This document shows positions 47,224 to 64,000 of a stretch of 64,000 nucleotides of DNA, one piece after another. The stretch comes from Phenylobacterium sp. (GTDB lineage: Bacteria > Pseudomonadota > Alphaproteobacteria > Caulobacterales > Caulobacteraceae), in contig NZ_JAUSCJ010000022.1 of NCBI RefSeq assembly GCF_030651185.1, positions 186,001-250,000 of the forward strand. The letters run 5' to 3'. The number at the start of each line of letters is the position of its first letter. Within the stretch, counting starts at the first letter, position 1. A program made the translations under genes and the position numbers. The notes under the pieces were generated by a model that saw only the letters and a list, made by a program, of their open reading frames with translations, was not told the origin of the DNA and did not search any database.

Positions 47224-47658
47224 TCAGCCTCGACGCGGACGCAGGGCCAGAATTAGGAACACCAGGGCCAGGGCCACAAACACGGGGCTGCCATAGTGGG
47301 CAGGAGGGTGGTGGCCGCTGACCGGTGGCGACAGCACCCAACCGTGCAGGCTCATCAGGCCGCGCTCAACGATCACCAGGGCCAGGAACAGCGCCGTGAG
47401 GGTCTGATAGCGCAAGGCCACCGCCAGCAGTCCCATTCCCAGCGCCAGCTGGGTCGCGCCCTCCCATCGGAACAGACCGATCACCATGTCGCGCCTGTCA
47501 CCCATATCCAGGCCCCCGATCACACCAGCTCCGCCGTCGGGAAGAAAGCTGTGGATCAGACCGGGGACCAGGGTCAGGACCGCGGACAGTCCCAGGAACC
47601 AGACCGAACTCCGAGCCCCGAGGTACTGAGAATTGGTCGAGGGCGGAAAGAAGCTCAT
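47224..47658 (-). CDS. Small integral membrane protein, unknown function
   Basis: 144 residues with four hydrophobic segments (about 20-40, 65-85, 85-105 and 122-140). Family not recognised. Its ATG overlaps the stop of dehalogenase 2 (ATGA), making it the third gene of the sulfatase operon. Confidence 0.7.
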   Translation of the reverse strand: MSFFPPSTNSQYLGARSSVWFLGLSAVLTLVPGLIHSFLPDGGAGVIGGLDMGDRRDMVIGLFRWEGATQLALGMGLLAVALRYQTLTALFLALVIVERGLMSLHGWVLSPPVSGHHPPAHYGSPVFVALALVFLILALRPRRG

Positions 47659-48662: not shown

Positions 48663-48663
48663 A

Positions 48664-50343
48664 TCAATTGTCCCAGAGGATGTATTCCTCGCCCGCCTTC
48701 TGCGGCTGGCCACTCGGGTGGTCGATGAAGACCGGACCCTGGAGCAGGGACGGCCACATGGGCTTTTTCGTCTGCGCGTCCTGGGCCTTCAGCAGGGCCT
48801 TCAGCGCCGCCACCTTCTCTGGATTGGTCTTGGAGAGGTCGCGCTGCTCGGTGGGGTCGGCGGCCAGGTCGTAGAGCCAGACCTTGTCCCGGGCGCCGCT
48901 GACCTGAAGTTTCCACTCGCCGTCTAGAACGCTGCTGTATTGGCCTGAGCGCCAGAACAGAGTCTGGTGCGGGCGGCCCGTGGCCTTGCCCTGCAGATAG
49001 GGCGTCAGGTCGACGCCATCGATCACCCGGTCGGTGGGGACCGCCGCTCCGGCTGCCCCGGCGGCCGTGGCGAAGATGTCGATGTGGCTGACCGGGCTGG
49101 CGTAGCGGGAGCCCGGCGCGATCTTGGCGGGCCAGCGCATGAAGAAGGGCGCGCGGATGCCGCCTTCGAAGAAGGTCGACTTGAAGCCGCGATAGGGGCG
49201 GTTGATCTCCGGCAGGCCGACATAGCCCGCGCCGCCGTTGTCGCTGGTGAAGATCACCAGGGTGTTGTCGTCCAGGCCCTCGTCCTTCAGGGTCTGCAGC
49301 ACGCGGCCCACATTGCGGTCCAGGTTGCGGACCATGGCGGCATAGACCCGCAAGCGGTGATCCTTGATCTGGGGCAGGGCGTCATAGTCGGCCTTGGTGG
49401 CCTGCAGCGGCGTATGGATGGCGTTCGGCGCGTAGTACATGAAGAATGGCCGGTTCTTGTTGGCCTTGATCGCGCTCACCGCCTCATCGGTGAGGTAGTC
49501 GGTCATGTAGCCCTTCGGCGCGAACATGGCCGAGTTGTTGTACTGCACCTGATAGGGAAGGTTCGGCCACAGGAAGCGGTCGATGGGGTCCCAGGGCTGC
49601 TTGGCGTTGACCACGTCAGGCGCCTTTTCCGGCAGGTACATCGAGCCGCCGGCGATAAAGCCCAGGCTCTCGTCGAAACCCTGCGCCTCGGGACGCGACC
49701 CTTCCGCCCCGCCCAGGTGCCACTTGCCCAGGTGAATGGTGTGGTAGCCGCGGGTCTTCAGGACCTCAGCTATGGTCACTTCACTGGCGGGCACGCTCAG
49801 GGTGTTGACGGCGGTGGGCGACGGCGCGGTGCTGCCGGGGGGCATGTCCTTGACCCGGTCGCCGAAGAACTTCGGTTTGACGATGGAGTCCGGCTCCGCC
49901 TCGGTGCCCACCAGCTTGGCGAAGCCGACGGGGGCTGGTGTGAATTCGAAGCCGAAGCGCGTGGGGTAGCGGCCGGTCATGATGGCCGCCCGGGACGGGG
50001 CGCAGGTGGCGTTGCCGGCATAGCCGTTGGTGAAGTCGACCCCGTCGCGACCGATGGAATCGATGTTCGGCGTGGGGACGACGCCACCCGCCACCCCCCC
50101 GCCGTTGATGGTGATGTCGTTGAAGCCCATGTCGTCGACGAGGATGAAGACCACGTTCGGCGGCGCTTCGCCGGGCGCCGGGGCTGTTGGGCCCTGGGCC
50201 CAGTTCACCGGACGGTTGGGTTCGATGTGCGGCAGCCTCGCACGAGCGATCATCCCAATGATGGCCGGCTTGTTCATCGACGCGACGCCGACGCCGGCGG
50301 CGATCACCAGGGCGGTGGCGCCCAGCCAGATGCGCTTCTTCAT
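48664..50343 (-). CDS. Arylsulfatase-type sulfatase
   Basis: 559 residues: N-terminal hydrophobic export/anchor segment (5-22), the metal motif VVFILVDDMGFNDI, and the formylglycine motif NATCAPSRAAIMTGR (Cys114, C-x-P-S-R). Further active-site stretches are GYHTIHLGKWHLGG and VIFTSDNGGAGYVGL. It hydrolyses sulfate esters, probably in the periplasm, and needs a formylglycine-generating enzyme encoded elsewhere. First gene of an operon with dehalogenase 2 and the membrane protein. Confidence 0.92.
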   Translation of the reverse strand: MKKRIWLGATALVIAAGVGVASMNKPAIIGMIARARLPHIEPNRPVNWAQGPTAPAPGEAPPNVVFILVDDMGFNDITINGGGVAGGVVPTPNIDSIGRDGVDFTNGYAGNATCAPSRAAIMTGRYPTRFGFEFTPAPVGFAKLVGTEAEPDSIVKPKFFGDRVKDMPPGSTAPSPTAVNTLSVPASEVTIAEVLKTRGYHTIHLGKWHLGGAEGSRPEAQGFDESLGFIAGGSMYLPEKAPDVVNAKQPWDPIDRFLWPNLPYQVQYNNSAMFAPKGYMTDYLTDEAVSAIKANKNRPFFMYYAPNAIHTPLQATKADYDALPQIKDHRLRVYAAMVRNLDRNVGRVLQTLKDEGLDDNTLVIFTSDNGGAGYVGLPEINRPYRGFKSTFFEGGIRAPFFMRWPAKIAPGSRYASPVSHIDIFATAAGAAGAAVPTDRVIDGVDLTPYLQGKATGRPHQTLFWRSGQYSSVLDGEWKLQVSGARDKVWLYDLAADPTEQRDLSKTNPEKVAALKALLKAQDAQTKKPMWPSLLQGPVFIDHPSGQPQKAGEEYILWDN

Positions 50344-50995: not shown

Positions 50996-51023
50996 GTATT
51001 ACGATTTGAGCGGATCGTAATAC
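50996..51023. promoter_or_regulatory. Perfect 28-bp NikR-type dyad (operator 1)
   Basis: Arms GTATTACGAT (50996-51005) and ATCGTAATAC (51014-51023) are exact reverse complements around eight bases, 18 bases before the NikR-like gene. Written as GTATTA-N16-TAATAC it has the same spacing as the E. coli NikR site GTATGA-N16-TCATAC. It probably mediates autoregulation of the guanidine operon. Confidence 0.8.
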
Positions 51024-51040
51024 TGACCGCACATCGGCGC

Positions 51041-51502
51041 ATGAACGTCGAAACCCTTCCCCTGGCGCGATTGAGTCTGAGCATGCCCGCCGAACTGGTG
51101 GCCCAGCTCGACGCCATGGTCACCGAACGCGGCCTGCCCAGCCGGTCTCAGATGATCGCCGAACTGATCCGCCACGAACTGGCCGAGCATGGCGAGACCC
51201 GGCCCGCGACGGTCCTGGCGGGCGCCATCACCCTGATCTACCGCACTGAGAGCGGCCGGGTCCGCCAGGCGCTGGCCCAGGCCCAGCAGGCCTATCTGGA
51301 GGAGGTGATTTCCTCCCAGCACGTCTTCCTGGAGGACGACCAGTCCCTGGAGGTGCTCCTGGTCCAGGGGCCGTCGGAGCGCCTGCGGGACCTCTGCGAC
51401 GAGCTGCGCAAAATCCGGGGCGTGCAGCAGCTGAAGCTGGTGACCACCACCGCTCTGCTGCCGCCCCTGCATGCCCTGTTCGATCCCGAGGACGCGACAT
51501 GA
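51041..51502 (+). CDS. NikR-like ribbon-helix-helix regulator without the nickel ligands
   Basis: 153 residues. The RHH domain is LARLSLSMPAELVAQLDAMV with LPSRSQMIAELIRHELAEH (about 7-49), followed by an ACT-like ligand domain ending VQQLKLVTTTALLPPLH. In E. coli NikR the high-affinity nickel site uses His76, His87, His89 and Cys95. Here the corresponding stretch is SSQHVFLEDDQSLEVLLVQG, with one His and no Cys, so nickel binding is unlikely. Its stop overlaps cgdA (ATGA), so it is the first gene of the operon, and a perfect operator-like dyad precedes it. I infer a regulator that senses guanidine, urea or nitrogen state. A second copy lies at the right edge. Confidence 0.8.
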   Translation: MNVETLPLARLSLSMPAELVAQLDAMVTERGLPSRSQMIAELIRHELAEHGETRPATVLAGAITLIYRTESGRVRQALAQAQQAYLEEVISSQHVFLEDDQSLEVLLVQGPSERLRDLCDELRKIRGVQQLKLVTTTALLPPLHALFDPEDAT

Positions 51503-52323
51503 CCGACACCGCCAACCCCTATGCCGCCCAGGCCCACGCCCGGGCCATGGCCGGGACGCAGGTCGAGGCCATGCCCACCGTGCCCGCGAGTTCGGCGACC
51601 GACCTGCCGGTCGAAGTGTCGCCGGCCGACATGCTTTGGGCCGAGACCGTCGCGCCGGGTGGCTACGCCGCCAAGCGCCTGGACCGCGGCGCGCGGCTGC
51701 AGCTCACCGACCTGGCCGGCGACGCCTGCGCCTCGATGCTGGTGTTCAACGCCGAGCGGCCCATCGAGCGGCTGAACGTGGCCGACACCCTGAAGGTCCA
51801 GTGGAACGCCTATCTGGGGGCCGGCAAGCTGGTCCTGTCGGACATGGGCAAGGTGATGTTCAGCGTGCTGGAGGATGGCGCGGGAACCCACGACGCCTTC
51901 TGCGGGGCTTCCAACCAAATGACCAACGCCGCCAGGTACGGGACCGGCGACAACTGGGGGCCGCACCCGAATGCGCGGGACCGCTTCAGTCTGGCGCTCG
52001 CCAAGTTCGGCCTGGGCCGCCGGGACATCCACCCCTGCCTCAACTGGTTCAAGGGCGTGAAGGTGGAGGCCGACGGGTCGCTGACCCCACAACATGGCCC
52101 CTTCGCCGGCAGCCGGAGCCTGACCCTGCGGGCCGAGATGGACCTGATCGTGGTGCTGGCCAACTGCCCCCACGTGTTGGACGCGCGGTCGGACTACAGC
52201 GTCACGCCCCTGCGGGTCGCCGCCTGGCGCGGCCCGGTGACCCCGGCGGACGACCCCATCCGCAACGCCACCCCGGAGGGCCAGCGGGCCTTCCTGAACG
52301 TCGAGGCCGAGTACAGCCGATGA
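51499..52323 (+). CDS. cgdA: DUF1989 protein, carboxyguanidine deiminase subunit A type (urea carboxylase-associated 1)
   Basis: 274 residues. DUF1989 features: DMLWAETVAPGGYAAKRLDR, LADLAGDACASMLVF-like core, DAFCGASNQMTNAARYG and HPCLNWFKGVKVEADGSL. The pair formerly called urea carboxylase-associated proteins has been shown in other bacteria to be carboxyguanidine deiminase (CgdAB), which turns carboxyguanidine into allophanate and ammonia. Here it sits directly before its partner (ATGA overlap) and the carboxylase, as expected for guanidine use. Assignment of A versus B follows gene order and length. Confidence 0.82.
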   Translation: MTDTANPYAAQAHARAMAGTQVEAMPTVPASSATDLPVEVSPADMLWAETVAPGGYAAKRLDRGARLQLTDLAGDACASMLVFNAERPIERLNVADTLKVQWNAYLGAGKLVLSDMGKVMFSVLEDGAGTHDAFCGASNQMTNAARYGTGDNWGPHPNARDRFSLALAKFGLGRRDIHPCLNWFKGVKVEADGSLTPQHGPFAGSRSLTLRAEMDLIVVLANCPHVLDARSDYSVTPLRVAAWRGPVTPADDPIRNATPEGQRAFLNVEAEYSR

Positions 52324-52949
52324 GTAGCCCCCTGGACGGCCTGACCGGACCCATCGCCCGGGACGACGTCGTCCCGGCCCGCGCGCCCTGGGACGCTGTG
52401 GTGCGCAAGGGCCAGACCCTGCGCATCGTCGACCTGGAGGGCAACCAGGCCGTGGACTTCCTGATGTATGCGCTGGCCGACGACGCCGAGCGCTACTCGG
52501 CCCAGGACACCATGGCCGCGCAGGGGAACATCTTCCTGCGCAACGGCTCGGTGCTGCTGTCCAATGAGGGCAATGCGATGGCCACCGTCACCGCCACCTC
52601 TGTGGCCTATCACGACACCATCGGTGGCGCCTGCTCGTGCGAGAGCAACACCCTGCGCTATGGCCACCACACCAAGAGCCAGCACGCCTGCGTCGAGAAC
52701 TTCCTGCAGGCCAACGCCAAGCACGGGCGCGGCAAACGCGACATGGTCTCCAACATCAACTGGTTCATGAACGTGCCGGTGGAGGCCGATGGGGCGCTGG
52801 GCATCGTCGACGGCATCTCGGCGCCGGGCCTCTATGTGGACCTGCGCGCGGAGATGGACCTGGTGGCCATCGTCTCCAACTGTCCGCAGATCAACAATCC
52901 CTGCAACGGCTTCAATCCGACGCCCGTGCGCATGATCATCGCGGGGTAG
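52320..52949 (+). CDS. cgdB: DUF1989 protein, carboxyguanidine deiminase subunit B type (urea carboxylase-associated 2)
   Basis: 209 residues from ATG 52320. It contains RIVDLEGNQAVDFLMYALAD, GGACSCESNTLRYGHHTKSQ (cysteine- and histidine-rich, likely metal site), HACVENFLQ and VSNCPQINNPCNGFNPTPVR. It is the shorter DUF1989 partner of the deiminase. It overlaps cgdA and lies five bases before the carboxylase gene. Confidence 0.82.
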   Translation: MSSPLDGLTGPIARDDVVPARAPWDAVVRKGQTLRIVDLEGNQAVDFLMYALADDAERYSAQDTMAAQGNIFLRNGSVLLSNEGNAMATVTATSVAYHDTIGGACSCESNTLRYGHHTKSQHACVENFLQANAKHGRGKRDMVSNINWFMNVPVEADGALGIVDGISAPGLYVDLRAEMDLVAIVSNCPQINNPCNGFNPTPVRMIIAG

Positions 52950-52954
52950 GGCGG

Positions 52955-55900
52955 TTGTTCACCAAGGTCCTGATCGCCAACCGGGGCGCCATCGCCTGCC
53001 GGATCATTCGTACCCTGAAGACCATGGGGGTTGGCTCCGTGGCGGTGTTCTCCGACGCCGACGCCGGCAGCCTGCATGTCTCCCAGGCCGACGAGGCCGT
53101 GCACATCGGCCCCGCGGCCGCCGCCCAGTCCTATCTCGACATCGACGCCATCCTGGCCGCGGCCCAGGCCACGGGCGCCCAGGCCATCCATCCGGGCTAC
53201 GGCTTCCTCAGCGAGAACACCAATTTCGCAGAGCGCTGCGAGGCGGCGGGGATCGCCTTTATCGGCCCGACCCCGGCCAATATCCTGGCCTTTGGCCTCA
53301 AGCACACCGCCCGCGACCTGGCTCAGGCCCAGGGTGTGCCCCTGGCGCCCGGCACCGACCTGCTCACCGACGCCGAAGTGGCCCGCGAGGCGGCCGAGCG
53401 GATCGGCTTCCCGGTGATCCTCAAGGCCACGGCCGGGGGCGGCGGCATCGGCATGCGGGTCTGCGAAACGCCAGAGGCCGTGGCCGAGGCCTTCGCCGCC
53501 GTGGCGCGGCTGGCGGGCTCCAACTTCTCCGACGCCGGGGTGTTCCTGGAGCGATATGTGCGCAAGGCGCGCCACATCGAGGTCCAGGTGTTCGGCGACG
53601 GCGCCGGCAAGGTCGTGGCGCTGGGCGAGCGCGACTGCTCCCTGCAGCGCCGCAACCAGAAGGTCATCGAGGAGACGCCCGCCCCGCACCTGCCGGTCGC
53701 CACCCGCGCCGCCCTCATGGCCGCCGCCGTCCGTCTGTGCGAGGCCGCCGACTATCGCTCCGCCGGCACCGTCGAGTTCCTCTACGACGCCGAGCGGGAC
53801 GACTTCTTCTTCCTGGAGGTCAACACCCGGCTGCAGGTCGAGCACGGGGTGACCGAGCAGGTCACCGGCGTCGATCTCGTCGAATGGATGATCCGCGGGG
53901 CGGCCGGCGACTACGCCTTCCTCGACAGCTTCGACGGCGCCGCCAAGGGCGCCTCGATCCAGGCCCGGCTCTATGCCGAGGATCCGGGCCAGGACTACAG
54001 GCCCTCCTCAGGCGTGCTCACCAAGGCCAGCTTCCCGGAGGGCGTCCGGGTCGACACCTGGATCACCGACGGCTCTGAGGTCAGCGCCCACTACGACCCC
54101 CTGCTGGCCAAGCTGATCGTCACTGCCGACGACCGAGAGACGGCCGTCCGCGCCCTGCAGCAGGCCCTGGACCGCACCGCCCTCTACGGCCTGGAGACCA
54201 ACCTCGAATGGCTGCGCCAGGTGGCGCGCAGCGAAGCCTTCGTCAGCGGCGAGGTCTCGACCCGTGCTCTGGCCGACATCGTGTTCAAGCCCCGCACCAT
54301 CCGGGTGCTGAGCGGCGGCCCGGCCACCACGGTCCAGGACTATCCGGGCCGCCTCGGCTACTGGGACGTGGGCGTACCGCCGTCGGGGCCGATGGATGCG
54401 CTCGCCTTCCGGCTGGGCAACAAGCTTCTGGGCAATCCGGAGACTGCGGCGGGGTTGGAGATCACCGCGCTGGGCCCCAGCCTGATCTTCAACCACGAGG
54501 CCGTGGTCTGCCTGACCGGCGCCGAACTGGAGGCCCGTCTCGATGGCGAGCCGGTGGCCACCTACGCGCCGTTTGCCATCGCGGCGGGCCAGACCCTGAA
54601 GATCGCCCGGGTGAAGGGCGCGGGCCTGCGGGCCTATCTGCTGGTGCGCGGCGGGCTGGATATCCCGGCCTATCTCGGCAGCCGCTCGAGCTTCACCCTC
54701 GGCGGCTTCGGCGGTCATGCGGGGCGCACCCTGGCGGCCGGCGACGTGCTGCACCTGGGCGACGCGCAGGTCGAGGATGTCGCCCAGCCGCTGGCGCCGT
54801 CCGCGCGGCCCAAGCTCGGCAAGGCCTGGGCGATCCGGGTGCTGGCGGGACCGCACGGCGCGCCGGACTTCTTCACCCCCGGCGACATCGCCATGGTCCG
54901 CTCGGCCGAGTGGAAGGTGCACTACAATTCCAACCGCACCGGCGTGCGCCTGATCGGCCCCAAGCCGCACTGGGCGCGGCGCGACGGCGGCGAGGCGGGG
55001 CTGCATCCCTCCAACATCCACGACAACGCCTACGCCATCGGCGCTGTCGACTTCACCGGCGACATGCCGATCATCCTGGGGCCGGACGGGCCGTCGCTCG
55101 GCGGGTTCGTCTGCCCCTTCGTGGTGATCCAGGCCGACCTGTGGAAGGTGGGCCAACTGGCGCCCGGCGACACCGTCAGCTTCGACGTGGTGGACGACAC
55201 CGCCGCCACCCTGGCCGAGGCCGAGCTGGACCGGCTGGTGGCCAGCCTGGAGCCCGGCCCGCCGCCGACTCCTGCGCCGCATCGCGAACTGCCCGGGGGC
55301 GACATCATCAATCCGGTGCTGGCGGTCATCGAAGCCACCGGTCACCGGCCCCAGGTGGTTTACCGCCGCCAGGGGGACCGGCACCTCCTGGTCGAATACG
55401 GCCCCATCGTTCTGGACCTCGAACTGCGCCTGCGCATCCACGCTTTGATGCTGGAACTCCAGGCCAAGGCCCTGCCCGGCGTCATCGACATCACGCCCGG
55501 CATCCGCTCGCTGCAGGTCCACTATGACAGCCGCGTCCTGCCCCAGGTCGGCCTGCTGCAGACGCTCGCCGACATGGAAGAGCGCCTGGGGGGGCTCGAC
55601 GACTTCGAGATCCCCAGCCGGGTGATCCACCTGCCGCTGTCCTGGAAGGACCCGGCGATCTACGAGACCATCGACAAGTACATGGCCTCGGTGCGCGACG
55701 ACGCCCCCTGGTGCCCGGACAACATCGAGTTCATCCGGCGCATCAACGGCCTGGAGAGCGAGGACGACGTCCACCGCATCGTCTTCGACGCCCGCTACCT
55801 GGTGATGGGCCTGGGGGACGTCTATCTGGGCGCGCCGGTGGCCACCCCGGTCGATCCGCGCCACCGGCTTGTCACGACGAAGTACAACCCCGCCCGCACC

Positions 55901-56578
55901 TGGACCCCGCCCAACGTGGTGGGCATCGGCGGGGCCTATATGTGCATCTATGGGATGGAGGGGCCGGGCGGCTACCAGCTGTTCGGGCGCACCATCCAGG
56001 TGTGGAACACCTATCGCCAGACCAACGCCTTCACCGAGGGCAAGCCCTGGCTGCTGCGGTTCTTCGACCAGATCCGGTTCTTCCCCGTCAGCCACGAGGA
56101 GCTCACCGAATGGCGCCGCGACTTCCCCCTGGGCCGCCGCGAGATCCGCATCGACGAGGAGACCTTCCGGCTTTCCGACTACCGCAGGATGATGGCCGAC
56201 AACGCCGAGTCCATCGAGGCCTTCCAGGCGACCCGCCAGGCCGCCTTCGAGGCCGAGCGGGCCGATTGGGAGGTGAAGGGCGAGTTCGCCCGGGTCGAGG
56301 CGCTCTCCAGCGAAGCCATCGATGACGCGCCCGCCGCCGCCTTCGAGGCGCCCGGCGGTTCGGAATTCGTCGAGGCGCCCCTGGGCGGCAGCGTCTGGAA
56401 GATGCTCGTCGAGGTGGGCGACCACGTGGAGAAGGGTGCGATCATCGCGGTCATCGAGGCCATGAAGACCGAGTGCGACGTGGCCAGCCCCAGCGCCGGC
56501 GTGGTCCGCCAGGTCTATGCCCAGGAACGCCAGCCCATTGCGCCGGGCGCCCCGATGATCGCCCTCGAACCGGCCTGA
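52955..56578 (+). CDS. uca: Urea/guanidine carboxylase, biotin-dependent
   Basis: 1,207 residues, the full length for the family. The start is TTG 52955, the only codon giving the canonical MFTKVLIANRGAIACRIIR. Domains: biotin carboxylase (1-450; ATP-grasp KATAGGGGIGMRV, then QRRNQKVIEETPAPHL), KipI/KipA-like carboxyltransferase (about 450-1100; VQDYPGRLGYWDVGVPPSGP, YNPARTWTPPNVVGIGGAYM), and a biotinyl domain with VIEAMKTECDV (biotin Lys1171). It carboxylates urea to allophanate or guanidine to carboxyguanidine with ATP and bicarbonate. The cgdAB neighbours favour guanidine as the true substrate; I have not checked substrate-pocket residues. Confidence 0.93.
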   Translation: MFTKVLIANRGAIACRIIRTLKTMGVGSVAVFSDADAGSLHVSQADEAVHIGPAAAAQSYLDIDAILAAAQATGAQAIHPGYGFLSENTNFAERCEAAGIAFIGPTPANILAFGLKHTARDLAQAQGVPLAPGTDLLTDAEVAREAAERIGFPVILKATAGGGGIGMRVCETPEAVAEAFAAVARLAGSNFSDAGVFLERYVRKARHIEVQVFGDGAGKVVALGERDCSLQRRNQKVIEETPAPHLPVATRAALMAAAVRLCEAADYRSAGTVEFLYDAERDDFFFLEVNTRLQVEHGVTEQVTGVDLVEWMIRGAAGDYAFLDSFDGAAKGASIQARLYAEDPGQDYRPSSGVLTKASFPEGVRVDTWITDGSEVSAHYDPLLAKLIVTADDRETAVRALQQALDRTALYGLETNLEWLRQVARSEAFVSGEVSTRALADIVFKPRTIRVLSGGPATTVQDYPGRLGYWDVGVPPSGPMDALAFRLGNKLLGNPETAAGLEITALGPSLIFNHEAVVCLTGAELEARLDGEPVATYAPFAIAAGQTLKIARVKGAGLRAYLLVRGGLDIPAYLGSRSSFTLGGFGGHAGRTLAAGDVLHLGDAQVEDVAQPLAPSARPKLGKAWAIRVLAGPHGAPDFFTPGDIAMVRSAEWKVHYNSNRTGVRLIGPKPHWARRDGGEAGLHPSNIHDNAYAIGAVDFTGDMPIILGPDGPSLGGFVCPFVVIQADLWKVGQLAPGDTVSFDVVDDTAATLAEAELDRLVASLEPGPPPTPAPHRELPGGDIINPVLAVIEATGHRPQVVYRRQGDRHLLVEYGPIVLDLELRLRIHALMLELQAKALPGVIDITPGIRSLQVHYDSRVLPQVGLLQTLADMEERLGGLDDFEIPSRVIHLPLSWKDPAIYETIDKYMASVRDDAPWCPDNIEFIRRINGLESEDDVHRIVFDARYLVMGLGDVYLGAPVATPVDPRHRLVTTKYNPARTWTPPNVVGIGGAYMCIYGMEGPGGYQLFGRTIQVWNTYRQTNAFTEGKPWLLRFFDQIRFFPVSHEELTEWRRDFPLGRREIRIDEETFRLSDYRRMMADNAESIEAFQATRQAAFEAERADWEVKGEFARVEALSSEAIDDAPAAAFEAPGGSEFVEAPLGGSVWKMLVEVGDHVEKGAIIAVIEAMKTECDVASPSAGVVRQVYAQERQPIAPGAPMIALEPA

Positions 56579-56584
56579 AATCCC

Positions 56585-58363
56585 ATGACCCGTCTCTCCA
56601 TCGCCGCCATCGCGTCCGACGTCTCCAGCGGCAAGCGTTCCGCCGAGGCCGTCATCGCCGAGGCCCTGGACTCCATCGCCGCCTATGACGAGGTTCAGGC
56701 CCACGCCTGGATCATGCGGCCAGATCCGCAAGTCGTCCTGGCCCAGGCCCGCGCCATCGACGCCCGCGTCGCGGCGGGCGAGACGTTGCCCCTGGCCGGC
56801 GTGCCCTTCGCGGTGAAGGACAATATCGACGTGGCGGGCCTGCCCACCACGGCGGCCTGCCCCGCCTACGCCTACGAGCCGCAGGCGACCGCCACCGTCG
56901 TCGCCCGGCTGCTGGCGGCGGGCGCGATCCTGATGGGCAAGACCAACCTGGACCAGTTCGCCACCGGCCTGGTGGGCGCCCGCAGCCCCTATGGCGCGCC
57001 GGCCTGCGTCTACAACCTGGCCTATGTCAGCGGCGGGTCGAGTTCCGGGTCGGCGGTGGCCGTAGCGGCGGGGCTCGTGGCTTTCGCGCTGGGCACCGAC
57101 ACGGCGGGCTCGGGCCGGGTGCCGGCGGCCTTCAACGGCCTGATCGGCTTCAAGCCCACCAAGGGCCGCTGGAGCACCTCGGGCGTTGTGCCGGCCTGCC
57201 GCTCCCTCGACTGCGTCACCGTGCTGGCCAACGACGTCGCCGACGCGGCTCTGGTGGACAGCGTCGTGGCGGCCTTCGATCCCACCGACGCCTATTCGCG
57301 GCCCGCGCCAGCCGCGCCCGCCCTGCTGGGGCCGAGCTTCCGGTTCGGGGTTCCGAAGGCGGATCAACTGATCTTCATGGGCGATGACCAGGCCCAGGCC
57401 TTCTACGCCAAGGCGGTCGAACGCCTCACCGCCACCGGCGGCGTCCCGGTCGAGATCGACATCGAGCCCCTGCTGGAGGCGGCCAAGCTGCTCTACAGCG
57501 GCCCGTGGGTGGCCGAACGCACCGCCGCCACCGAGTCCCTGCTCCGCGAGACCCCGGCGGCCGTGAACCCCACGGTCCGCGCCATCCTGCAGGGCGGCTT
57601 CGGGGTCACAGGCGTGGACACCTTCCGCGGCCTCTATGCGCTCGCCGACCACGCTCGGGCGGCTGAGGCGATCTGGCCCCAGGTCGACGTCCTGCTGCTG
57701 CCCACCACGCCGACCATCTACCGCCTGCGCGAGGTCATGGCTGAGCCCTTCGCCCTGAACGGGGCGCTCGGCCTCTACACCAACTTCGTCAACCTGCTGG
57801 ACATGAGCGCCATCGCGGTCCCGGCCGGGTTCCGCGACAACGACACCGGCTTCGGCGTCACCCTGGTGGGTCAGGCCTGGGCCGACAACCTCCTGCTCGA
57901 CCTGGCCCGCCGCTACGAGGAGATCTCCCCCATGCCCGACGCCCCTGTCCTCGACGCCACCGGAAAGGCCCAGACCGTGAAGCTCGCCGTGGTCGGCGCC
58001 CACCTGGCCGGCATGCCGCTGCACTGGCAGCTCACCTCCCGCGAGGCCAAGCTGATCAGCCGCACCAAGACCGCCCCGGCCTACAGGCTGTTCGCCATGA
58101 CCAACACCACGCCGTTCAAGCCGGCTCTGATCCATGTGGGCGAGGGCGGCGGGGCCATCGAGGTGGAGGTCTACGAGATGGGCGTCGAGGCCTTCGGCAG
58201 CTTCGTCGTCGAGGTGCCCGCGCCGCTCGCCATCGGCACCGTCACCCTGGAGGGGGGCGGCTCGGTGAAGGGCTTCGTCGCCGAACCTCGCGCCATCGTC
58301 GGCGCAGAGGACATCACGGCCCTGGGCGGCTGGCGCGCCTATATCGCCAAGCTGCCGGCCTAG
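56585..58363 (+). CDS. atzF: Allophanate hydrolase
   Basis: 592 residues. Amidase-signature domain (1-440) with AVKDNIDVAGLPTTAACPAY (catalytic Lys), YVSGGSSSGSAVAVAAG (Ser) and FALGTDTAGSGRVPAAFNGL (nucleophile Ser), followed by the C-terminal domain of long allophanate hydrolases (LAVVGAHLAGMPLHWQLTSR). It hydrolyses allophanate to ammonia and carbon dioxide, completing the route. It lies six bases after the carboxylase gene. Confidence 0.95.
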   Translation: MTRLSIAAIASDVSSGKRSAEAVIAEALDSIAAYDEVQAHAWIMRPDPQVVLAQARAIDARVAAGETLPLAGVPFAVKDNIDVAGLPTTAACPAYAYEPQATATVVARLLAAGAILMGKTNLDQFATGLVGARSPYGAPACVYNLAYVSGGSSSGSAVAVAAGLVAFALGTDTAGSGRVPAAFNGLIGFKPTKGRWSTSGVVPACRSLDCVTVLANDVADAALVDSVVAAFDPTDAYSRPAPAAPALLGPSFRFGVPKADQLIFMGDDQAQAFYAKAVERLTATGGVPVEIDIEPLLEAAKLLYSGPWVAERTAATESLLRETPAAVNPTVRAILQGGFGVTGVDTFRGLYALADHARAAEAIWPQVDVLLLPTTPTIYRLREVMAEPFALNGALGLYTNFVNLLDMSAIAVPAGFRDNDTGFGVTLVGQAWADNLLLDLARRYEEISPMPDAPVLDATGKAQTVKLAVVGAHLAGMPLHWQLTSREAKLISRTKTAPAYRLFAMTNTTPFKPALIHVGEGGGAIEVEVYEMGVEAFGSFVVEVPAPLAIGTVTLEGGGSVKGFVAEPRAIVGAEDITALGGWRAYIAKLPA

Positions 58364-58423
58364 CGGATCACAGCGGAGCCTTGATAGAAGGGAGCCGACG
58401 CTCCTCTCGACAACAAGGCCGCC

Positions 58424-59470
58424 ATGCTGAGCTGGATCCATTCGACCCTGGGCTACGCCTGGGGACCTCTGCGGCTCTTCGAGTCCTTCTTCTTCCTGGC
58501 GGGCATCGGCTTCGCGCTCTGCGCGCTCTCCACCTGGATTCTTCTGCCCAGGCTCTGGTCGCGCCTGCCCACCGACCGGGGCCGCGCCTTCGCTGTCAAC
58601 GCCGAGATGAGCGTGGGCAAGCCGATCAGCGCAGGCCTGATCTTCGTCAGCATTTTCTGCCTGGCCTGTCTGATCTTCGTGCCCTTTGGCGCGCGATGCC
58701 TCCTCACCCTGCCGTTGATGGTGGCGGCCATGCTGGTGGGCTATTTCGACGATCGGCGCGGCGGTTTCTCGGAGTACCAGCTGGCCCTGATGGACGCGGC
58801 CATCGCAGTCGGCGCGGCCATGGTGATCTGCGGCTTTGAGCCCGTCACCATCTGGCTGCCGATCTGGAAGGGGACCCTCATCCTCGGCCCCTGGCTCTCC
58901 ATTCCGCTGGCCTCGGGCCTGATCTGGCTTTCCATCAACGCCACCAACTGCTCCGACGGGGTGGACGGGGTGTCGGGCAGTCTGACCGGCACCGCCATCC
59001 TGCTGCTGGGCGGCCTGCTCTACGCGGTGCTCGGCAACGAGGTGGTGGCCGGACACCTCAACGTCCCCTTCACCCGCGAGGGCGCCAACTGGGCGATCAT
59101 GGCCTTCCTGATGGTGGGCTGCGTGGCCGGCTACCTCTGGTACAACGCCGCCCCCAGCCTGGTGCTGATGGGGGATGCCGGATCGCGGCCGCTGGGTCTG
59201 CTGATCGGCATGCTGGTGGTGGCCACCAACAACCCGCTGTTCCTGCTGCTGGTGGGCTCGGTGATCCTGATGAACGGCGCCACGGGCCTGGTGAAGGTCG
59301 CCCTGCTGCGGTTCTTCGGCCTGAAGATTCTGGCCGGCATCCGCTTCCCCCTGCACGACCATTGCCGCAAGGAACTGGGCTGGTCCAACACCCAGGTGCT
59401 GGTGCGCTTCATGCTGGTGCACCTCGGCCTCTCGGCCCTGCTGGTGATCCTGGCCCTGAAGGTCCGTTAA
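58424..59470 (+). CDS. MraY/WecA-superfamily phosphosugar transferase paralog
   Basis: 348 residues, nine to ten membrane helices. MraY-type motifs: MLVGYFDDRRGGFSEYQ (Mg-binding Asp pair), SINATNCSDGVDGVSGSL, LVLMGDAGSRPLGLLIGMLV and a C-terminal HDHCRKELGWSNTQVLVRFM in place of the MraY HHHFE-GW loop. MraY makes lipid I; WecA relatives start other polymers. A cell-wall-type enzyme in a nitrogen-salvage operon is unexpected. It follows atzF by 60 bases on the same strand and overlaps the convergent ATPase gene by four. It may be a second MraY or a glycan initiator unrelated to guanidine. Confidence 0.75.
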   Translation: MLSWIHSTLGYAWGPLRLFESFFFLAGIGFALCALSTWILLPRLWSRLPTDRGRAFAVNAEMSVGKPISAGLIFVSIFCLACLIFVPFGARCLLTLPLMVAAMLVGYFDDRRGGFSEYQLALMDAAIAVGAAMVICGFEPVTIWLPIWKGTLILGPWLSIPLASGLIWLSINATNCSDGVDGVSGSLTGTAILLLGGLLYAVLGNEVVAGHLNVPFTREGANWAIMAFLMVGCVAGYLWYNAAPSLVLMGDAGSRPLGLLIGMLVVATNNPLFLLLVGSVILMNGATGLVKVALLRFFGLKILAGIRFPLHDHCRKELGWSNTQVLVRFMLVHLGLSALLVILALKVR

Positions 59471-60234
59471 GTGCTCACGAGGCCCTTCAGAACCGGCGGC
59501 ACGGCGCGGCTCTTCTTGTCGTCCAGCGGGAAGTCGTAGACCGCGGTCGAGCCGTAGCGGTGCGGCGCCTGGGGATCGTGGCGGCGCTTGTCGAAGGCCA
59601 CCACGCGGGTGCCCAGCTTGAAGGCCTCCTTGATGTCGTGGGTGACCATCAGGATGGTGAGTTTGTGCTCGGTCCACAGCTCGGTGATCAGGGCGTGCAT
59701 GTCCAGGCGCACGCCTGGGTCCAATGCGCCGAAGGGCTCGTCGAGGAGCAGGATGCGCGGCCGGGTGATCAGGGCCTGGGCGAGGGCCAGCCGCTGCTGC
59801 ATGCCCCCCGACAGCGCGCGCGGATAGGTCTTGAAATTGTGCTCCAGCCCGACGCGGGCCAGCAGGGCCTTGGCCGCCTCGCGGGCCAGTTTCTTGTCCT
59901 TGCCCCCCAGCCGACCGCGCAGGGGGGAGCCCGCGCAGTCCAGGCCGAAGGTGACGTTGTCGAGGGCGTTCATGTGCGGGAACACCGAGTAGCGCTGGAA
60001 GACCACGCCACGGTCGGGGCCGGGCTCGGGCGACAGCGGCTCGCCGTCCAGCAGAATCGAGCCCCGCGTCGGCGCCTCCTGGCCGAGCGCCAGCCGCAGG
60101 AAGGTGGACTTGCCGGCGCCAGACGGCCCGATGATGGAGACGAAGGCCCCGTCGGCGACCTCCAGGTCGACCTTCTCCAGGACGATCTTCGAACCGTACT
60201 CGACCCAGACGTTTCGGAAGGCCAGCTTGCTCAT
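59467..60234 (-). CDS. ABC importer ATP-binding protein (guanidine/urea locus)
   Basis: 255 residues from ATG 60234 (ATGA overlap with the permease stop). Walker A IIGPSGAGKSTFLRLALG, signature ALSGGMQQRLALAQALI, Walker B ILLLDEPFGALDPGVRLD, H-loop VTHDIKEAF: the TauB/SsuB type. Third gene of the binding protein-permease-ATPase operon. Confidence 0.92.
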   Translation of the reverse strand: MSKLAFRNVWVEYGSKIVLEKVDLEVADGAFVSIIGPSGAGKSTFLRLALGQEAPTRGSILLDGEPLSPEPGPDRGVVFQRYSVFPHMNALDNVTFGLDCAGSPLRGRLGGKDKKLAREAAKALLARVGLEHNFKTYPRALSGGMQQRLALAQALITRPRILLLDEPFGALDPGVRLDMHALITELWTEHKLTILMVTHDIKEAFKLGTRVVAFDKRRHDPQAPHRYGSTAVYDFPLDDKKSRAVPPVLKGLVST

Positions 60235-61055
60235 CGGACGTTTCGCGGCGGATGGGCCCAGGCGAAGCTGGTGCGGCTCCAGGCCTGCAGGGCCAGGTCC
60301 ATGATCACCGCCAAGAGCGAGATCCAGACGACGTAGGGCAGGATGATGTCCATGGCCAGGTACCGGCGGACCAGGAAGATCCGATAGCCGAGGCCGACGT
60401 CCGAGGCGATGGCCTCGGCGGAGATCAGATAGACCCAGGCGGGGCAAAGGGAGAGCCGCAGGGAGTCGATCAAGCGCGGCAGGGCCTGGGGGAGGGCGAC
60501 CCGCAGCAGGGTCAGCCAGGTCGAGGCGCCGAGCGTCTGGGCCTTGACGATCTGTTCCTCGGGGATGGCCGCCACATGGGTCGCGAGGTCGCGGACCATG
60601 ACCGGGGTGATGCCGACGAAGATCAGCACGATCTTCGAGGTCTCCCCCAACCCGAAGACGATGAAGAGTATGGGCAAGACCGCGATGGGCGGGATCACCG
60701 AGATGGTCGCCACAAGGGGGCCGAGGCTGGCGCGCACATAGGGGAGCAGGCCGATGGTGAGGCCCAGGACCAAGGTGGTGGCCGCCGCGAGCCCGACGGC
60801 GATCCCAAGCCGGCTCAGGCTGGCCTTGGTGTCGGCCACCAGCGGCACCTCGCCGGTGCGGGGATCGGGCTCGAAGGCCATGGTCTGGATGCCGGCGGCC
60901 ATGGCGGCCGGGATCGGGGTGATCTTGTCGCGGGGGTTCTCGGTGTGCCGCGCAGTGGCGATCACCAGGTAGAGCAGGACCAGGGCCAGGATCGGCAGCA
61001 GGCCCAGAAGGAGGCGACCCCCGACACGCGGCCGCGCGTTCAGCAGACGGCGCAT
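60231..61055 (-). CDS. ABC importer permease, TauC/SsuC type
   Basis: 274 residues, six or seven membrane helices, with the EAA loop of importers (VKAQTLGASTWLTLLRVALP). A long periplasmic stretch near the N-terminus (about 35-75) follows the first helix. It overlaps the ATPase gene and follows the binding-protein gene. Confidence 0.9.
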   Translation of the reverse strand: MRRLLNARPRVGGRLLLGLLPILALVLLYLVIATARHTENPRDKITPIPAAMAAGIQTMAFEPDPRTGEVPLVADTKASLSRLGIAVGLAAATTLVLGLTIGLLPYVRASLGPLVATISVIPPIAVLPILFIVFGLGETSKIVLIFVGITPVMVRDLATHVAAIPEEQIVKAQTLGASTWLTLLRVALPQALPRLIDSLRLSLCPAWVYLISAEAIASDVGLGYRIFLVRRYLAMDIILPYVVWISLLAVIMDLALQAWSRTSFAWAHPPRNVR

Positions 61056-61102
61056 CGGAAGGTCACCTCCAGAGGGGTAAGTGAGTACTTGGAGCGCGGG
61101 GC

Positions 61103-62200
61103 CTAGAGCTTGCCGTCCGCGGCCATCTGCACGTAGGTCGGGTCGAAGCGCAGCTTCACGTTCTTCGGGTCGCCGAGGATCTTGCCGCCCGGGAACTCGA
61201 TGCCGATGTCGTCCACCGACTTGGCGCCCTGGCCGAACAGGCCGGCGGTGAAGCTGAACTTGCGCACCTTGTCGTTGGCGGTGACCAGGTCGGGACTGGT
61301 GGTGGCCGCCAGCGCCGCCTTGGGATCGTAGTAGAGGTAGGTGGTCTTCAGCTGGCTTTCGTAGCCGGCAAGGTCGGTGCCGGAGATCTTGGCCATCGCC
61401 TCGCGGGCGGCCTTACCGGCGGCGTCCTGCTGGTTCATCAGCATGGTGGTCTCGTACCAGATGCCGGCCAGGGCCTTGGCCAGGTTCGGGTTGGCCTTGG
61501 CCACCTCGGTGGAGATGATCATGCCGTCGAGGATCTCGCCGGGGATCTTGGACGAATCGAACACTTCCTTGGCCCCGGCCATCTTCTTGATTTCGGTGAG
61601 CTGCGGGTTCCAAGGCACCACAGCCTTGGTCTCCGGCGCGCCGAAGGCGGCCACGATGTCGGCGTCGGACGTGTTGACCACCTTCACGTCGGTCATCTTC
61701 AGGCCCGCGCTCTCCAAGCCCCGAGCCAGCAGGTAGTGGGAGACGGAGTTTTCCACCAGGTTGACCGGACGGCCCTTGATGTCGGCCAGGGTCGCGCCGC
61801 CCTTCAGGACGATGCCGTCATTGCCGTTGGAATAGTCGCCGATCATCACGAAGGTCGTGTCCTTACCGGCGGCGGCCGGAATGGTCAGGGCGTCCATGTT
61901 GGTGGAGGTCACCGCGTCCAGCTTGCCGGCGGTGAACTGGTTGAGGCTTTCGACATAGTCGTTGATCTGCACCAGCTTGATATCGACGCCGTACTTGTCG
62001 GACCACTTCTTCACGATCCCGGCCTGCTCGGCATAGGGCCAGGGCATCCAACCGGCATAGATGGTCCAGCCGACGGTGTAGGTCTTGGCGGCCGGCGCCG
62101 CGGCGCTCTCGGTCTCCGTCTTCGGGCTGCAGGCGGCGAGCGCCAGGCCGACAAGGGCCGCCGTGGCGGCGACTTTCACTCCGGTAAGCCACTTGGTCAT
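61103..62200 (-). CDS. ABC transporter substrate-binding lipoprotein of the urea-carboxylase-associated family
   Basis: 365 residues. Lipobox ALAACSPK (Cys about 24), then the NitT/TauT-like fold: YTVGWTIYAGWMPWPYAEQA, AGKLDAVTSTNMDALTIPAA, IVLKGGATLADIKGRPVNLV. This subfamily is regularly found beside urea/guanidine carboxylase genes (family knowledge) and probably binds guanidine, urea or a guanidino compound. The aromatic WTIYAGWMPWPY segment could form a cation-pi pocket for guanidinium (inference). A NikR-type dyad lies 47 bases upstream. Confidence 0.88.
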   Translation of the reverse strand: MTKWLTGVKVAATAALVGLALAACSPKTETESAAAPAAKTYTVGWTIYAGWMPWPYAEQAGIVKKWSDKYGVDIKLVQINDYVESLNQFTAGKLDAVTSTNMDALTIPAAAGKDTTFVMIGDYSNGNDGIVLKGGATLADIKGRPVNLVENSVSHYLLARGLESAGLKMTDVKVVNTSDADIVAAFGAPETKAVVPWNPQLTEIKKMAGAKEVFDSSKIPGEILDGMIISTEVAKANPNLAKALAGIWYETTMLMNQQDAAGKAAREAMAKISGTDLAGYESQLKTTYLYYDPKAALAATTSPDLVTANDKVRKFSFTAGLFGQGAKSVDDIGIEFPGGKILGDPKNVKLRFDPTYVQMAADGKL

Positions 62201-62246
62201 CTCGATCCCCTGTTCCGCAGACCGGCCTCGCCCGTCTTTCGAGCGA

Positions 62247-62272
62247 TATTACTGAGTGCGCAGATCGTAATA
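62247..62272. promoter_or_regulatory. NikR-type dyad (operator 2) before the ABC importer
   Basis: TATTAC-N14-GTAATA, exactly the half-sites and spacing of operator 1 (50996-51023). The right side ATCGTAATA is identical to that of operator 1. It lies 47 bases before the binding-protein start. Confidence 0.75.
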
Positions 62273-62401
62273 ATCCACGGCTCCGGCGTGCGCGGCGCGG
62301 AGAGGCGGAAAGGCGCCGCAAAACGAGGCAGGGAGGCGGCCGGATGACCGTCCAGGCGTCAATCGAGGGGGCCGTCGCGGCCGCTTCGCGTCGAGGGTGA
62401 C

Positions 62402-62429
62402 TGAATACGAACAGTTCAATTGGTAATAC
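62402..62429. promoter_or_regulatory. Weaker NikR-type site (operator 3) before the oxygenase
   Basis: GAATAC-N14-GTAATA followed by CG: the right half GTAATAC is exact and the left half has two mismatches to TATTAC. It lies 24 bases before the GTG start of the oxygenase gene. Confidence 0.45.
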
Positions 62430-62452: not shown

Positions 62453-63448
62453 GTGACCCGCAATTTCCAGTCTGTGCCGGTGGTGGATATTGCCCGCCTC
62501 GGCTCGCCCGACGCGGCTGATCGCCAGGCCGTGGCCGAGGCCCTTGGCCGCGCGGCGCGGGAGGCCGGCTTTCTCCACGTCACCGGCCACGGGCTGAACC
62601 CGGCCCTGATCGACGATCTGCTGGCCGCCGCCCAGCGCTACTTCGCCCAGCCGATGCCTGTGAAAATGGGGTGCTATATCGGTGGCTCCACCAACCACTC
62701 CGGCTACGTCCCAGAAGGTGAGGAGGTCTTTCCGGGCGGCAAGATCGACAGGAAGGAGGCCTATGACATCGGCCTCGACTGGCCGCACGGCGATGACCGC
62801 GCCCCGATGATGGGGCCGAACCTCTGGCCCGACGACGCGGGCTTCAAGGCCGCCGCCGAGGCCTATTATTCCGCGATCTCCGGCCTGGCCCGGCGGCTGT
62901 TTGGCGGCTTCGCCCTGGCGCTGGGTTTGCCCCAGGACGCCTTCGAAGCCCACCTGACCTGCCCGCCCAGCCAGCTTCGCGTCATCCACTACCCCTTCGA
63001 TCCCCATGCCGAGCCTGACCAGCAGGGGATCGGCGCCCATACCGACTATGAGTTCTTCACCCTGCTGCACGGCACCGCGCCGGGCCTGGAGGTGATGAAC
63101 GGGGAGGGGCGTTGGGTCGACTGCCCGCCGATCCCGGGCGCCTTCGTGGTCAATATCGGCGACATGCTGGAGGCCTGGACCAACGGCGAGTTCGTCGCGA
63201 CCTCGCACCGGGTCCGCAAGGTCGGCGAGGAGCGCTACAGCTTCCCCTTCTTCGCCACCTGCGATTACTGGACGGTGGTGGCGCCGCACCCGGCCTTCGT
63301 CAGCGACGAGCGTCCTGCCCGCTATCGGCGCCTGGTGTCGGGCGACCACCTGATGGCCCAGACCATCGCGACGTTCGGGTATCTGCAGGACCGTCGCGAC
63401 GGCGTGTCGGCGACCCTGGCCTTCGGACAGGAAGCGAAGGTCGTCTAA
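62453..63448 (+). CDS. 2-oxoglutarate/Fe(II) oxygenase, isopenicillin N synthase family
   Basis: 331 residues from GTG 62453 (GGGAG upstream). DIOX N-terminal domain (VPVVDIARLG; AREAGFLHVTGHGL) and the jelly-roll with facial triad His196-x-Asp198 (GIGAHTDYEFFTLLHG) and His252 (VATSHRVRKV), plus Arg261 in ERYSFPFF for 2-oxoglutarate. Relatives include the ethylene-forming enzyme and homoarginine hydroxylases, which release guanidine from arginine-type substrates. Divergent from the importer and flanked by two operator-like sites, it may supply guanidine to the pathway. That function is inference; other substrates are possible. Confidence 0.82.
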   Translation: MTRNFQSVPVVDIARLGSPDAADRQAVAEALGRAAREAGFLHVTGHGLNPALIDDLLAAAQRYFAQPMPVKMGCYIGGSTNHSGYVPEGEEVFPGGKIDRKEAYDIGLDWPHGDDRAPMMGPNLWPDDAGFKAAAEAYYSAISGLARRLFGGFALALGLPQDAFEAHLTCPPSQLRVIHYPFDPHAEPDQQGIGAHTDYEFFTLLHGTAPGLEVMNGEGRWVDCPPIPGAFVVNIGDMLEAWTNGEFVATSHRVRKVGEERYSFPFFATCDYWTVVAPHPAFVSDERPARYRRLVSGDHLMAQTIATFGYLQDRRDGVSATLAFGQEAKVV

Positions 63449-63736: not shown

Positions 63737-63856
63737 ATGACCCCTCGAAAGATCACCCCGAAAGCCACCCAGCCCCTCGCCGCCGTCCCGTGGGTCGTGC
63801 TGCTGCGTTCGGCCCTGTTCCAGGCGATGACCGTGCGGGCCGACAGACTGGGTTAG
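63737..63856 (+). CDS. Possible 39-residue small protein
   Basis: ATG at 63737 with GGAGG six bases upstream; the product starts MTPRKITPKATQPLAAVPWV and ends with VRADRLG. It is basic, with a short hydrophobic middle (WVVLLRSALF). No family known. Its end overlaps the convergent regulator gene by four bases. The good ribosome binding site is the main support. Confidence 0.4.
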   Translation: MTPRKITPKATQPLAAVPWVVLLRSALFQAMTVRADRLG

Positions 63857-64000
63857 CGGGCGCCGGCCCGGCGGCGCATGGGCGCCACGGGCTCGGCCGC
63901 CCCATGAGCATGCAGCGGCGGCAGCAGGGAGCGCGTCGTCACCAGTTTCAATTGCTGAACCGCGCGGACCCGGCGCAGCCGGTCGCAGAGCTGTTGCAGA
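63853..64000 (-). CDS. C-terminus of a second NikR-like regulator (gene continues beyond the window)
   Basis: The minus-strand frame open at the edge ends in TAA at 63853 and reads LQQLCDRLRRVRAVQQLKLV then TTRSLLPPLHAHG. The regulator at 51041 has LRDLCDELRKIRGVQQLKLV then TTTALLPPLHALF at the same place, so this is a close paralog. A short extra tail (EPVAPMRRRAGAR) follows. The RHH domain lies outside the window. Confidence 0.82.
   Translation of the reverse strand, partial: LQQLCDRLRRVRAVQQLKLVTTRSLLPPLHAHGAAEPVAPMRRRAGAR

Follow-up and report, generated by a model that had tools for sequence, protein, structure and literature searches.

A 64,000-nucleotide stretch of the genome of Phenylobacterium sp. 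(contig NZ_JAUSCJ010000022.1 of assembly GCF_030651185.1, positions 186,001 to 250,000; hereafter the window) encodes a regulator of the NikR fold, at the head of a set of genes annotated as urea metabolism. Sequence diagnostics identify the targets as a cluster of the guanidine carboxylase type, and the regulon is one of guanidine use, not nickel. The regulator is probably an autoregulating repressor that acts on a family of dyad operators and stands in for a riboswitch, with guanidine or a closely related derivative as the likely releasing ligand. The genes run in the order regulator, UAAP1, UAAP2, ‘urea carboxylase’, allophanate hydrolase and MraY/WecA-like transferase, followed by an ATP-binding cassette (ABC) importer on the opposite strand, and then by a divergent oxygenase (Table 1).

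The first-pass annotation of this DNA had described a perfect dyad before the regulator, a copy of the same spacing before the importer, and a weaker copy before the oxygenase, all of which were recovered. The first site reads GTATTACGAT-TTGAGCGG-ATCGTAATAC, with 10-bp arms, the second is a perfect TATTAC-N14-GTAATA, and the third has two mismatches and is backed by conservation and by its profile score. The suggested genome scan for TATTAC-N14-GTAATA returned exactly two perfect places in 4.12 Mb, both at this locus, and the reversed control pattern had none in the same genome. Within the window, three matches with up to three mismatches compare with 0.50 expected (standard deviation 0.76; three were reached in 2 of 100 shuffles). 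With up to two mismatches allowed, the pattern is rarer in the genome than its reversed control (6 places, three of them outside this locus, against 14), so that the letters of the third site do not by themselves make it significant. It rests on conservation and on a profile trained on relatives, whereas the two strong sites need no such backing. That profile, built from the relatives’ sites with the window excluded, was scanned over a contiguous 76 kb, with 100 Markov-random copies as the null. Its five best places were operators 1, 2 and 3, in that order, followed by places scoring 13.4 and -1.3 bits; the best score per random copy was at most 14.4, with the median at -5.2 and the 95th percentile at 5.1. 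A profile from 127 sites prefers G and then A after TATTAC (56% and 61%), and as these sites were selected at no more than one mismatch, their half-site frequencies are no free measure of conservation.

Comparison of the intergenic regions in relatives, also suggested at the outset, found the dyads kept at all three promoters. It covered the best 80 of 203 confirmed stretches, from Caulobacterales, Sphingomonadales and a few metagenome-assembled genomes with other labels. In 78 of the 80 loci, the 650 bp ahead of the regulator contain a site with at most one mismatch (perfect in 60, within 50 bp in 66); in the other two, the regulator is inside an operon that is itself led by a site, after a TonB-receptor-like gene in L043 and after the importer in L077. 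All 48 loci that hold the importer promoter carry the importer site, six further loci ending inside the importer gene. The spacers of these conserved sites differ between loci at the same promoters. The oxygenase site, with zero or one mismatch, is present in 6/6 fetched relatives that have the oxygenase beside the importer (four perfect), and absent in 4/4 fetched loci with the importer promoter but no oxygenase (L173, L174, L175 and L178). In 37 of the 68 loci measured, the 26-bp core ends 17–20 bp before the matched first residue of the regulator, while in most of the others the protein match starts about seven residues later and the distance is about 21 bp longer.

That the motif matches are due to chance, or to plain ancestry without function, is barely conceivable. 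Such an account could draw on the genome count at up to two mismatches, where the reversed control has the larger number, and on a class-wide sample of 240 genomes, in which pattern matches occurred in 26 against approximately 34 for the control, with no excess; it does not explain why the same promoters carry sites across the related loci despite differing spacers, nor why loci with the oxygenase gene have the third site and loci without it do not. The class-wide sample contained a close regulator in the own genome only, and did not extend the regulon.

Site and regulator are also coupled within the family. Among 119 Caulobacteraceae genomes, 21 have the regulator (at least 60% identity), and a perfect site occurs in 20 of those 21 against 1 of the 98 others (Fisher p 1.8e-20, shared ancestry ignored); the reversed control pattern occurs in 4 of the 119. 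The sole regulator-bearing genome with no perfect site, G270, carries a one-mismatch site. UAAP2 exceeds its cut-off in 20 of the 119 genomes, all among the 21 with the regulator. These family genomes overlap the 80 loci, many being probably of the same species, and the two sets are not independent. The earlier proposal that one operator family links regulator, importer and oxygenase is borne out, as the pattern is rare genome-wide, conserved, and tracks the regulator gene. The two of its refuting conditions that concern genome copies and conservation in relatives both went in its favour. Further sites lie before TonB-receptor genes in relatives, identified by Pfam in L077, by reading in L053, and at 25–26% similarity in L178 and L179. 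The predicted regulon is accordingly wider than first stated, taking in TonB receptors in relatives and, by a weak site predicted for it, the importer/aldehyde dehydrogenase promoter described below.

A different factor binding the dyads, with the adjacent NikR-like protein merely a bystander, is very unlikely. Binding by the NikR-like protein is a prediction, and many sphingomonad sites hold a conserved TTGAC in the inner spacer that is possibly a promoter element, both of which would suit such a factor. Set against these are the tracking of the site with the regulator gene over the 119 genomes, a geometry equal to that of the E. coli NikR operator, and the regulator of genome G378, which at 44% identity also has a one-mismatch site between itself and the importer.

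The geometry had been noticed in the first-pass annotation, which ascribed to the first site the half-site spacing of the E. coli NikR operator; GTATNA half-sites do lie 16 bp apart in both. In the K-12 genome of E. coli, the operator of nikA reads GTATGACGAATACTTAAAATCGTCATAC, i.e. GTATGACGA-N10-TCGTCATAC, and the regulator site of the window in the same notation is GTATTACGA-N10-TCGTAATAC. The two have GTATNA-N16-TNATAC in common, with 18 of 28 bases equal and half-sites GTATTACGA in the window and GTATGACGA in E. coli.

The regulator itself has two Pfam domains above cut-off, PF01402 (RHH_1, 30.9 bits) and PF08753 (NikR_C, 76.2 bits). Five NCBIfam NikR models matched it, all below cut-off, the best scoring 94.1 against 105, and TIGR02793 57.7 against 175.45. 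Its closest PDB sequences are NikRs, as are the top Foldseek matches of its AlphaFold model, which has the ACT-type beta-alpha-beta-beta-alpha-beta order. The nickel site of NikR lies between subunits, and the AlphaFold monomer (mean predicted local distance difference test score 70, predicted template-modelling score 0.55) was for that reason used for fold assignment and not for pocket geometry. At the equivalents of H76, H87, H89 and C95, the high-affinity nickel ligands of E. coli NikR, the window regulator has Q, H, F and S. In the full set of 81 sequences, made up of the window's and those of 80 relatives, His is found at the H89 equivalent in none, Cys at the C95 equivalent in none, His at the H76 equivalent in three, and His at the H87 equivalent in 71. 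By contrast, all of H, H, H and C are retained in 20 of 22 other NikR-like loci drawn from these genome samples as a control, the exceptions being L098, a marginal match, and the G378 protein (R, H, H, T); L097 and matches lacking a returned locus were set aside in this comparison. In place of the metal ligands, the former pocket of the clade has Phe96 (76/81), Ser102 (71/81) and Glu104 (81/81). Several Arg as well as acidic residues are conserved in the clade, some of the Arg being invariant. The strand residues are R-x-S-x-S, as in Pyrococcus horikoshii NikR. In a tree of 53 rows, from which L098 was left out, the 29 guanidine-linked regulators (28 including that of the window, plus a second paralog) group in a single clade (100/99), to which the G378 copy is sister (99/98). 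The regulators of the nearest named relatives are 92–97% identical to that of the window, whose genome is close to Phenylobacterium.

With its metal site lost, the regulator is not to be taken for a nickel sensor. The first-pass annotation held that the sequence predicts both regulator family and regulon; membership of the NikR superfamily stands, on operator geometry, Pfam domains and fold. An improbable way to retain nickel would be a sparing switch, in which the regulator still senses nickel or another metal, by means of different residues, and turns off the nickel-free guanidine route whenever nickel is abundant. It would account for the NikR fold and operator geometry, for the His kept at the H87 equivalent in 71/81, for several database names (some public records call these regulators ‘nickel-responsive’), and for the urea-carboxylase operon of Caulobacter crescentus having been tied to nickel (PMC8552747). 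It would have to accommodate the loss of the H89 and C95 equivalents in 81/81 sequences, of H76 in 78/81 and of H87 in 10/81, the position of both perfect sites of the genome at guanidine genes, and a pattern of riboswitch replacement that points to guanidine.

The identity of the target genes follows from residues and gene content. Guanidine carboxylase is recognised by Asp at positions 1330 and 1584 of the Kluyveromyces lactis protein, and the residue at 1330 is what distinguishes it from urea carboxylase (PMC11410670). The carboxylase of the window has Asp at both, and the K. lactis chain, counted along the alignment, has Asn at 1330. Among 84 loci searched, the diagnostic Asp was present in 71/71 and 67/67 of those where the respective stretches were found. 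Paired DUF1989 subunits, with models over cut-off, and an allophanate hydrolase are all in the cluster, and DUF1989 pairs of this type are carboxyguanidine deiminase subunits (PMC11410670). With Asp at both positions and the deiminase pair, the cluster is therefore assigned to the guanidine type, and the importer (TIGR03427) is predicted to carry guanidine. More widely, approximately 75% of ‘urea carboxylase’ genes have been predicted to act on guanidine (PMC12186494).

Such clusters mostly come with either a riboswitch or the regulator. Of 219 Pseudomonadota genomes sampled, 25 have UAAP2 above cut-off. In 21 of these, a guanidine-I riboswitch lies within approximately 5 kb of UAAP2 and no regulator match above 30% identity was obtained. 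Three (the own genome, G495 and G469) have the regulator and no riboswitch found, the G495 and G469 regulators being 72% identical and adjoining the cluster. In the last, G378, the regulator (44% identical) and the importer are divergent genes with a one-mismatch operator in the intervening stretch, and UAAP1 is preceded by a guanidine-II riboswitch; here riboswitch and regulator divide one cluster. None of the 25 has neither device. No riboswitch of a guanidine class exceeded the gathering score in the window, none of any class did so in the 12-kb stretches of G495 and G469, and guanidine-I was not found genome-wide in these three genomes. Guanidine-I was likewise found in 0/119 Caulobacteraceae genomes and 0/199 of the family of G495, on the sphingomonad side, with filters that lose some weak matches. 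The all-Rfam scan covered 12 related loci and 16 plasmid loci, and the 21 guanidine-I genomes were covered for guanidine-I only. Of the 16 plasmid UAAP2 loci, ten have the riboswitch only, three the regulator and operator only (Sphingobium, Asticcacaulis excentricus and Novosphingobium PP1Y), three neither and none both; they came from 100 match rows, with some records listed twice, and were picked for genus spread before control elements were checked, so they are not a random sample. The strength of the riboswitch-or-regulator pattern lies in its kind and not in how many events it reflects.

These observations suggest a mechanism in which the NikR-fold protein would sit on two half-sites approximately two DNA turns apart, over the starts of its own operon, the importer and the oxygenase. 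Guanidine, or a guanidino compound turned into guanidine, would make the repressor let go, and the proteins for uptake, carboxylation, deimination and allophanate hydrolysis would then be made together with a guanidine-releasing oxygenase. The pocket of the lost nickel site, where Phe and Ser now predominate next to the conserved Glu, would be reused for the ligand and could hold a flat cation, which is the weakest step. Binding of the dyads is suggested by the shared operator architecture and the Arg/Ser strand residues of P. horikoshii NikR, repression by a core that, in 37 of the 68 loci, lies in the stretch polymerase must occupy or transcribe first, and a guanidine-type signal by the presence of the regulator where guanidine riboswitches are missing, at genes for uptake, breakdown and the predicted guanidine-releasing oxygenase.

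A lesser but real possibility is that the same regulon answers to another ligand, such as an alkylguanidine, a guanidino acid (arginine, homoarginine, agmatine), carboxyguanidine, allophanate or a metabolite of nitrogen status. ACT domains often bind amino acids, and the regulator model has the ACT-type order of strands and helices, together with several invariant Arg; the regulon also exceeds guanidine itself, with the 2-oxoglutarate (2OG) oxygenase, the TonB receptors, and the weak site at the promoter of a polyamine-type importer and aldehyde dehydrogenase. Guanidine remains favoured over these, as the regulator is found where guanidine riboswitches are missing, at the core genes those riboswitches control, and guanidine is their ligand (PMC12508155).

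Several points weigh against the proposed guanidine-released repressor. Its binding, ligand and repression are all inferred; no -10 or -35 element was assigned, and repression rests on the position of the site. Canonical NikR needs nickel to bind DNA, so ligand-triggered release would reverse the usual logic, and with several Arg among the clade's conserved residues, the ligand might be anionic. Strict exclusivity of riboswitch and regulator across the 25 genomes was dropped on account of the guanidine-II riboswitch in the G378 cluster, the exclusion not being absolute, and the association over these genomes (Fisher p 0.0017) ignores shared ancestry. The three plasmid loci with neither device in the 16.6 kb fetched are from Novosphingobium pentaromativorans and two Actinomycetota (L152, L156 and L157). 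As the host range of the regulator is narrow, the exchange of riboswitch for protein may represent only one or two evolutionary events.

The oxygenase that adjoins the importer has as its closest PDB sequence 9ovh, named an ethylene/succinate-forming enzyme. Ethylene-forming enzyme and the plant homoarginine-6-hydroxylases are described as 2OG oxygenases that free guanidine from arginine or homoarginine, and the window oxygenase is predicted to release guanidine from a larger guanidino compound. Beyond the window, beside a second 2OG oxygenase, lies a polyamine-type ABC importer, whose ATPase and two permeases match PotA, PotB and PotC below cut-offs, and whose binding protein had no NCBIfam match within the limit applied. 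The adjacent aldehyde dehydrogenase has succinate-semialdehyde dehydrogenase as its best model, below cut-off. We infer that the outlying importer, aldehyde dehydrogenase and second oxygenase would suit a reaction in which an alkylguanidine is hydroxylated, yielding guanidine and an aldehyde. The fourth-best profile place (13.4 bits) is the promoter between the substrate-binding-protein-like gene and the aldehyde dehydrogenase, just beyond the window (L089 7170-7199; degenerate, divergent), and its score is suggestive of membership of the operator family. The fifth, before the second oxygenase, has a score indistinguishable from chance. In G270, a two-mismatch site precedes that relative’s own copy of the binding-protein gene (L177 630-655).

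A second NikR-fold paralog, at the right edge of the window, was the only other NikR_C match in the genome. Its complete gene (L089 1854-2357) likewise lacks the H76, H89 and C95 equivalents, and its strand residues are R-x-G-x-S; it may read weaker, variant operators. It adjoins the polyamine-type importer, the aldehyde dehydrogenase, the second oxygenase and a TonB receptor.

Table 1. Operators and genes of the guanidine-linked locus, in coordinates of the window.
Feature	Position	Strand	Remarks
Operator 1	50996-51023 (26-bp core 50997-51022)		Perfect dyad GTATTACGAT-N8-ATCGTAATAC; 17 bp 5' of regulator ATG; 35.4 bits, top profile score
NikR-fold regulator (ribbon-helix-helix and NikR_C/ACT domain)	51041..51502	+	Pfam RHH_1, NikR_C
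UAAP1 / carboxyguanidine deiminase subunit (DUF1989)	51499..52323	+	TIGR03425, 296.7 bits (cut-off 205.95)
UAAP2 / carboxyguanidine deiminase subunit (DUF1989)	52323..52949	+	TIGR03424, 332.9 bits (cut-off 284.7); start codon provisional
Predicted guanidine carboxylase (model name: urea carboxylase)	52955..56578	+	TIGR02712, 1827.6 bits; Asp699, Asp955; start codon provisional
Allophanate hydrolase AtzF	56585..58363	+	TIGR02713, 754.5 bits
ABC importer ATPase	59467..60336	-	ABC_tran
ABC importer permease	60231..61055	-	BPD_transp_1
Importer substrate-binding protein (model name ‘putative urea’; guanidine predicted)	61103..62200	-	TIGR03427, 549.4 bits (cut-off 333.9)
Operator 2	62247..62272		TATTACTGAGTGCGCAGATCGTAATA; 46 bp 5' of the importer's first gene; 34.2 bits
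Operator 3	62402..62429 (26-bp core 62403-62428)		Two mismatches; before divergent oxygenase; 20.1 bits
2OG-Fe(II) oxygenase, isopenicillin-N-synthase-like	62453..63448	+	DIOX_N, 2OG-FeII_Oxy; GTG start likely
Second NikR-fold paralog, 3' end	63853..64000	-	71% identical to the regulator; runs on to ~64356 beyond the window

Between the enzyme operon and the importer, a gene for an MraY/WecA-like glycosyltransferase (58424-59470) seems unrelated to guanidine; it has the same place in two near relatives (L008 and L009). The 5' neighbours of the locus (47655-50343), named from their translations only, are alpha/beta-hydrolase-like (haloalkane-dehalogenase-like) and arylsulfatase-like genes. The sole Rfam match of the window at gathering score is a cobalamin riboswitch at 16936-17128 (124.6 bits).

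Among the relatives, L063 has a one-mismatch operator-like site (3755-3780) before a fatty-acid-hydroxylase-like gene, with genes of the metallo-beta-lactamase fold nearby; other sphingomonad loci have sites in similar places with like spacers, e.g. ATGCGTCAAG. Two regulator copies are apparent in several Novosphingobium/Sphingobium loci (L055, L062, L066, L067, L069, L072-L075 and L083), the first preceding the importer, the second preceding UAAP1 and having a perfect dyad of its own. The TTGAC of sphingomonad operators was considered as a -35 element and rejected, there being no convincing -10 at 16-18 bp and a ribosome-binding site close by (judged by eye, with no promoter scan). On plasmid pLA3 of N. 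pentaromativorans (L152), a LysR-type gene and a succinate-semialdehyde dehydrogenase lie beside the UAAP2 cluster, perhaps as a third mode of control.

Much of this system has known counterparts. The regulator shares with the NikRs of E. coli, Helicobacter pylori and P. horikoshii the ribbon-helix-helix and NikR_C domains, the best PDB matches by sequence and fold, and the operator GTATNA-N16-TNATAC. It differs in the loss of three of the four nickel ligands, in missing the NikR cut-offs, in forming its own clade, in a C-terminal LLPPLH tail, in T rather than G at operator base 5, and in having guanidine genes, and no nickel genes, at both perfect sites of the genome. The guanidine-I and guanidine-II riboswitches (RF00442 and RF01068) are found with the same gene set of UAAP1/2, guanidine carboxylase, AtzF and ABC importer; they are RNA elements in the transcript, common though not universal, whereas the present device would be a protein with DNA operators. 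The guanidine carboxylase pathway of Pseudomonas, Enterobacterales and Vreelandella has the same enzymes and ABC importer (PMC12508155; PMC12186494; PMC11410670), and in Vreelandella also an accessory 2OG oxygenase, MgdH. Control here is predicted to be by protein, and the window oxygenase (DIOX_N and 2OG-FeII_Oxy) is likened to MgdH by enzyme class alone. With ethylene-forming enzyme and the homoarginine-6-hydroxylases it shares the 2OG oxygenase class, and PDB chains of ethylene/succinate-forming enzyme are among its sequence matches; guanidine release, described for those enzymes, is here a prediction.

Precedents exist for the fold, for how the operator is built and for the metabolic genes. 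What appears new, in that it was not met in the literature searched, is a NikR relative with no nickel site, placed over guanidine genes in what looks to be the position of a riboswitch. Among the matches listed, by titles and the starts of abstracts and with few subscription papers covered, there was no guanidine-responsive transcription factor and no NikR-type regulator of guanidine genes, and a 2025 review still counts protein sensors for guanidine among the prospects for the future (PMC12186494). It is just short of an even call that this is the first guanidine-sensing transcription factor, its nickel pocket rebuilt for guanidinium, which has displaced the riboswitch in Caulobacterales and Sphingomonadales and kept the NikR operator almost unchanged.

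The locus provides a testable candidate family, operator and regulon. It would correct the names ‘nickel-responsive regulator’ and ‘urea carboxylase’ in many genomes, C. crescentus included, where the cold-induced urea-carboxylase operon CCNA_01902-06 has been linked to nickel and urease (PMC8552747); the wording of that paper and the C. vibrioides locus L034 suggest that this operon is of the present cluster type. NikR occurrence has supplemented a search for nickel transporters (PMC2667541), a use that proteins of the guanidine-linked clade could mislead. The regulator would further exemplify how a metal sensor can come to serve an organic ligand while its DNA recognition changes little, and how a protein can take over from a riboswitch at one and the same gene set.

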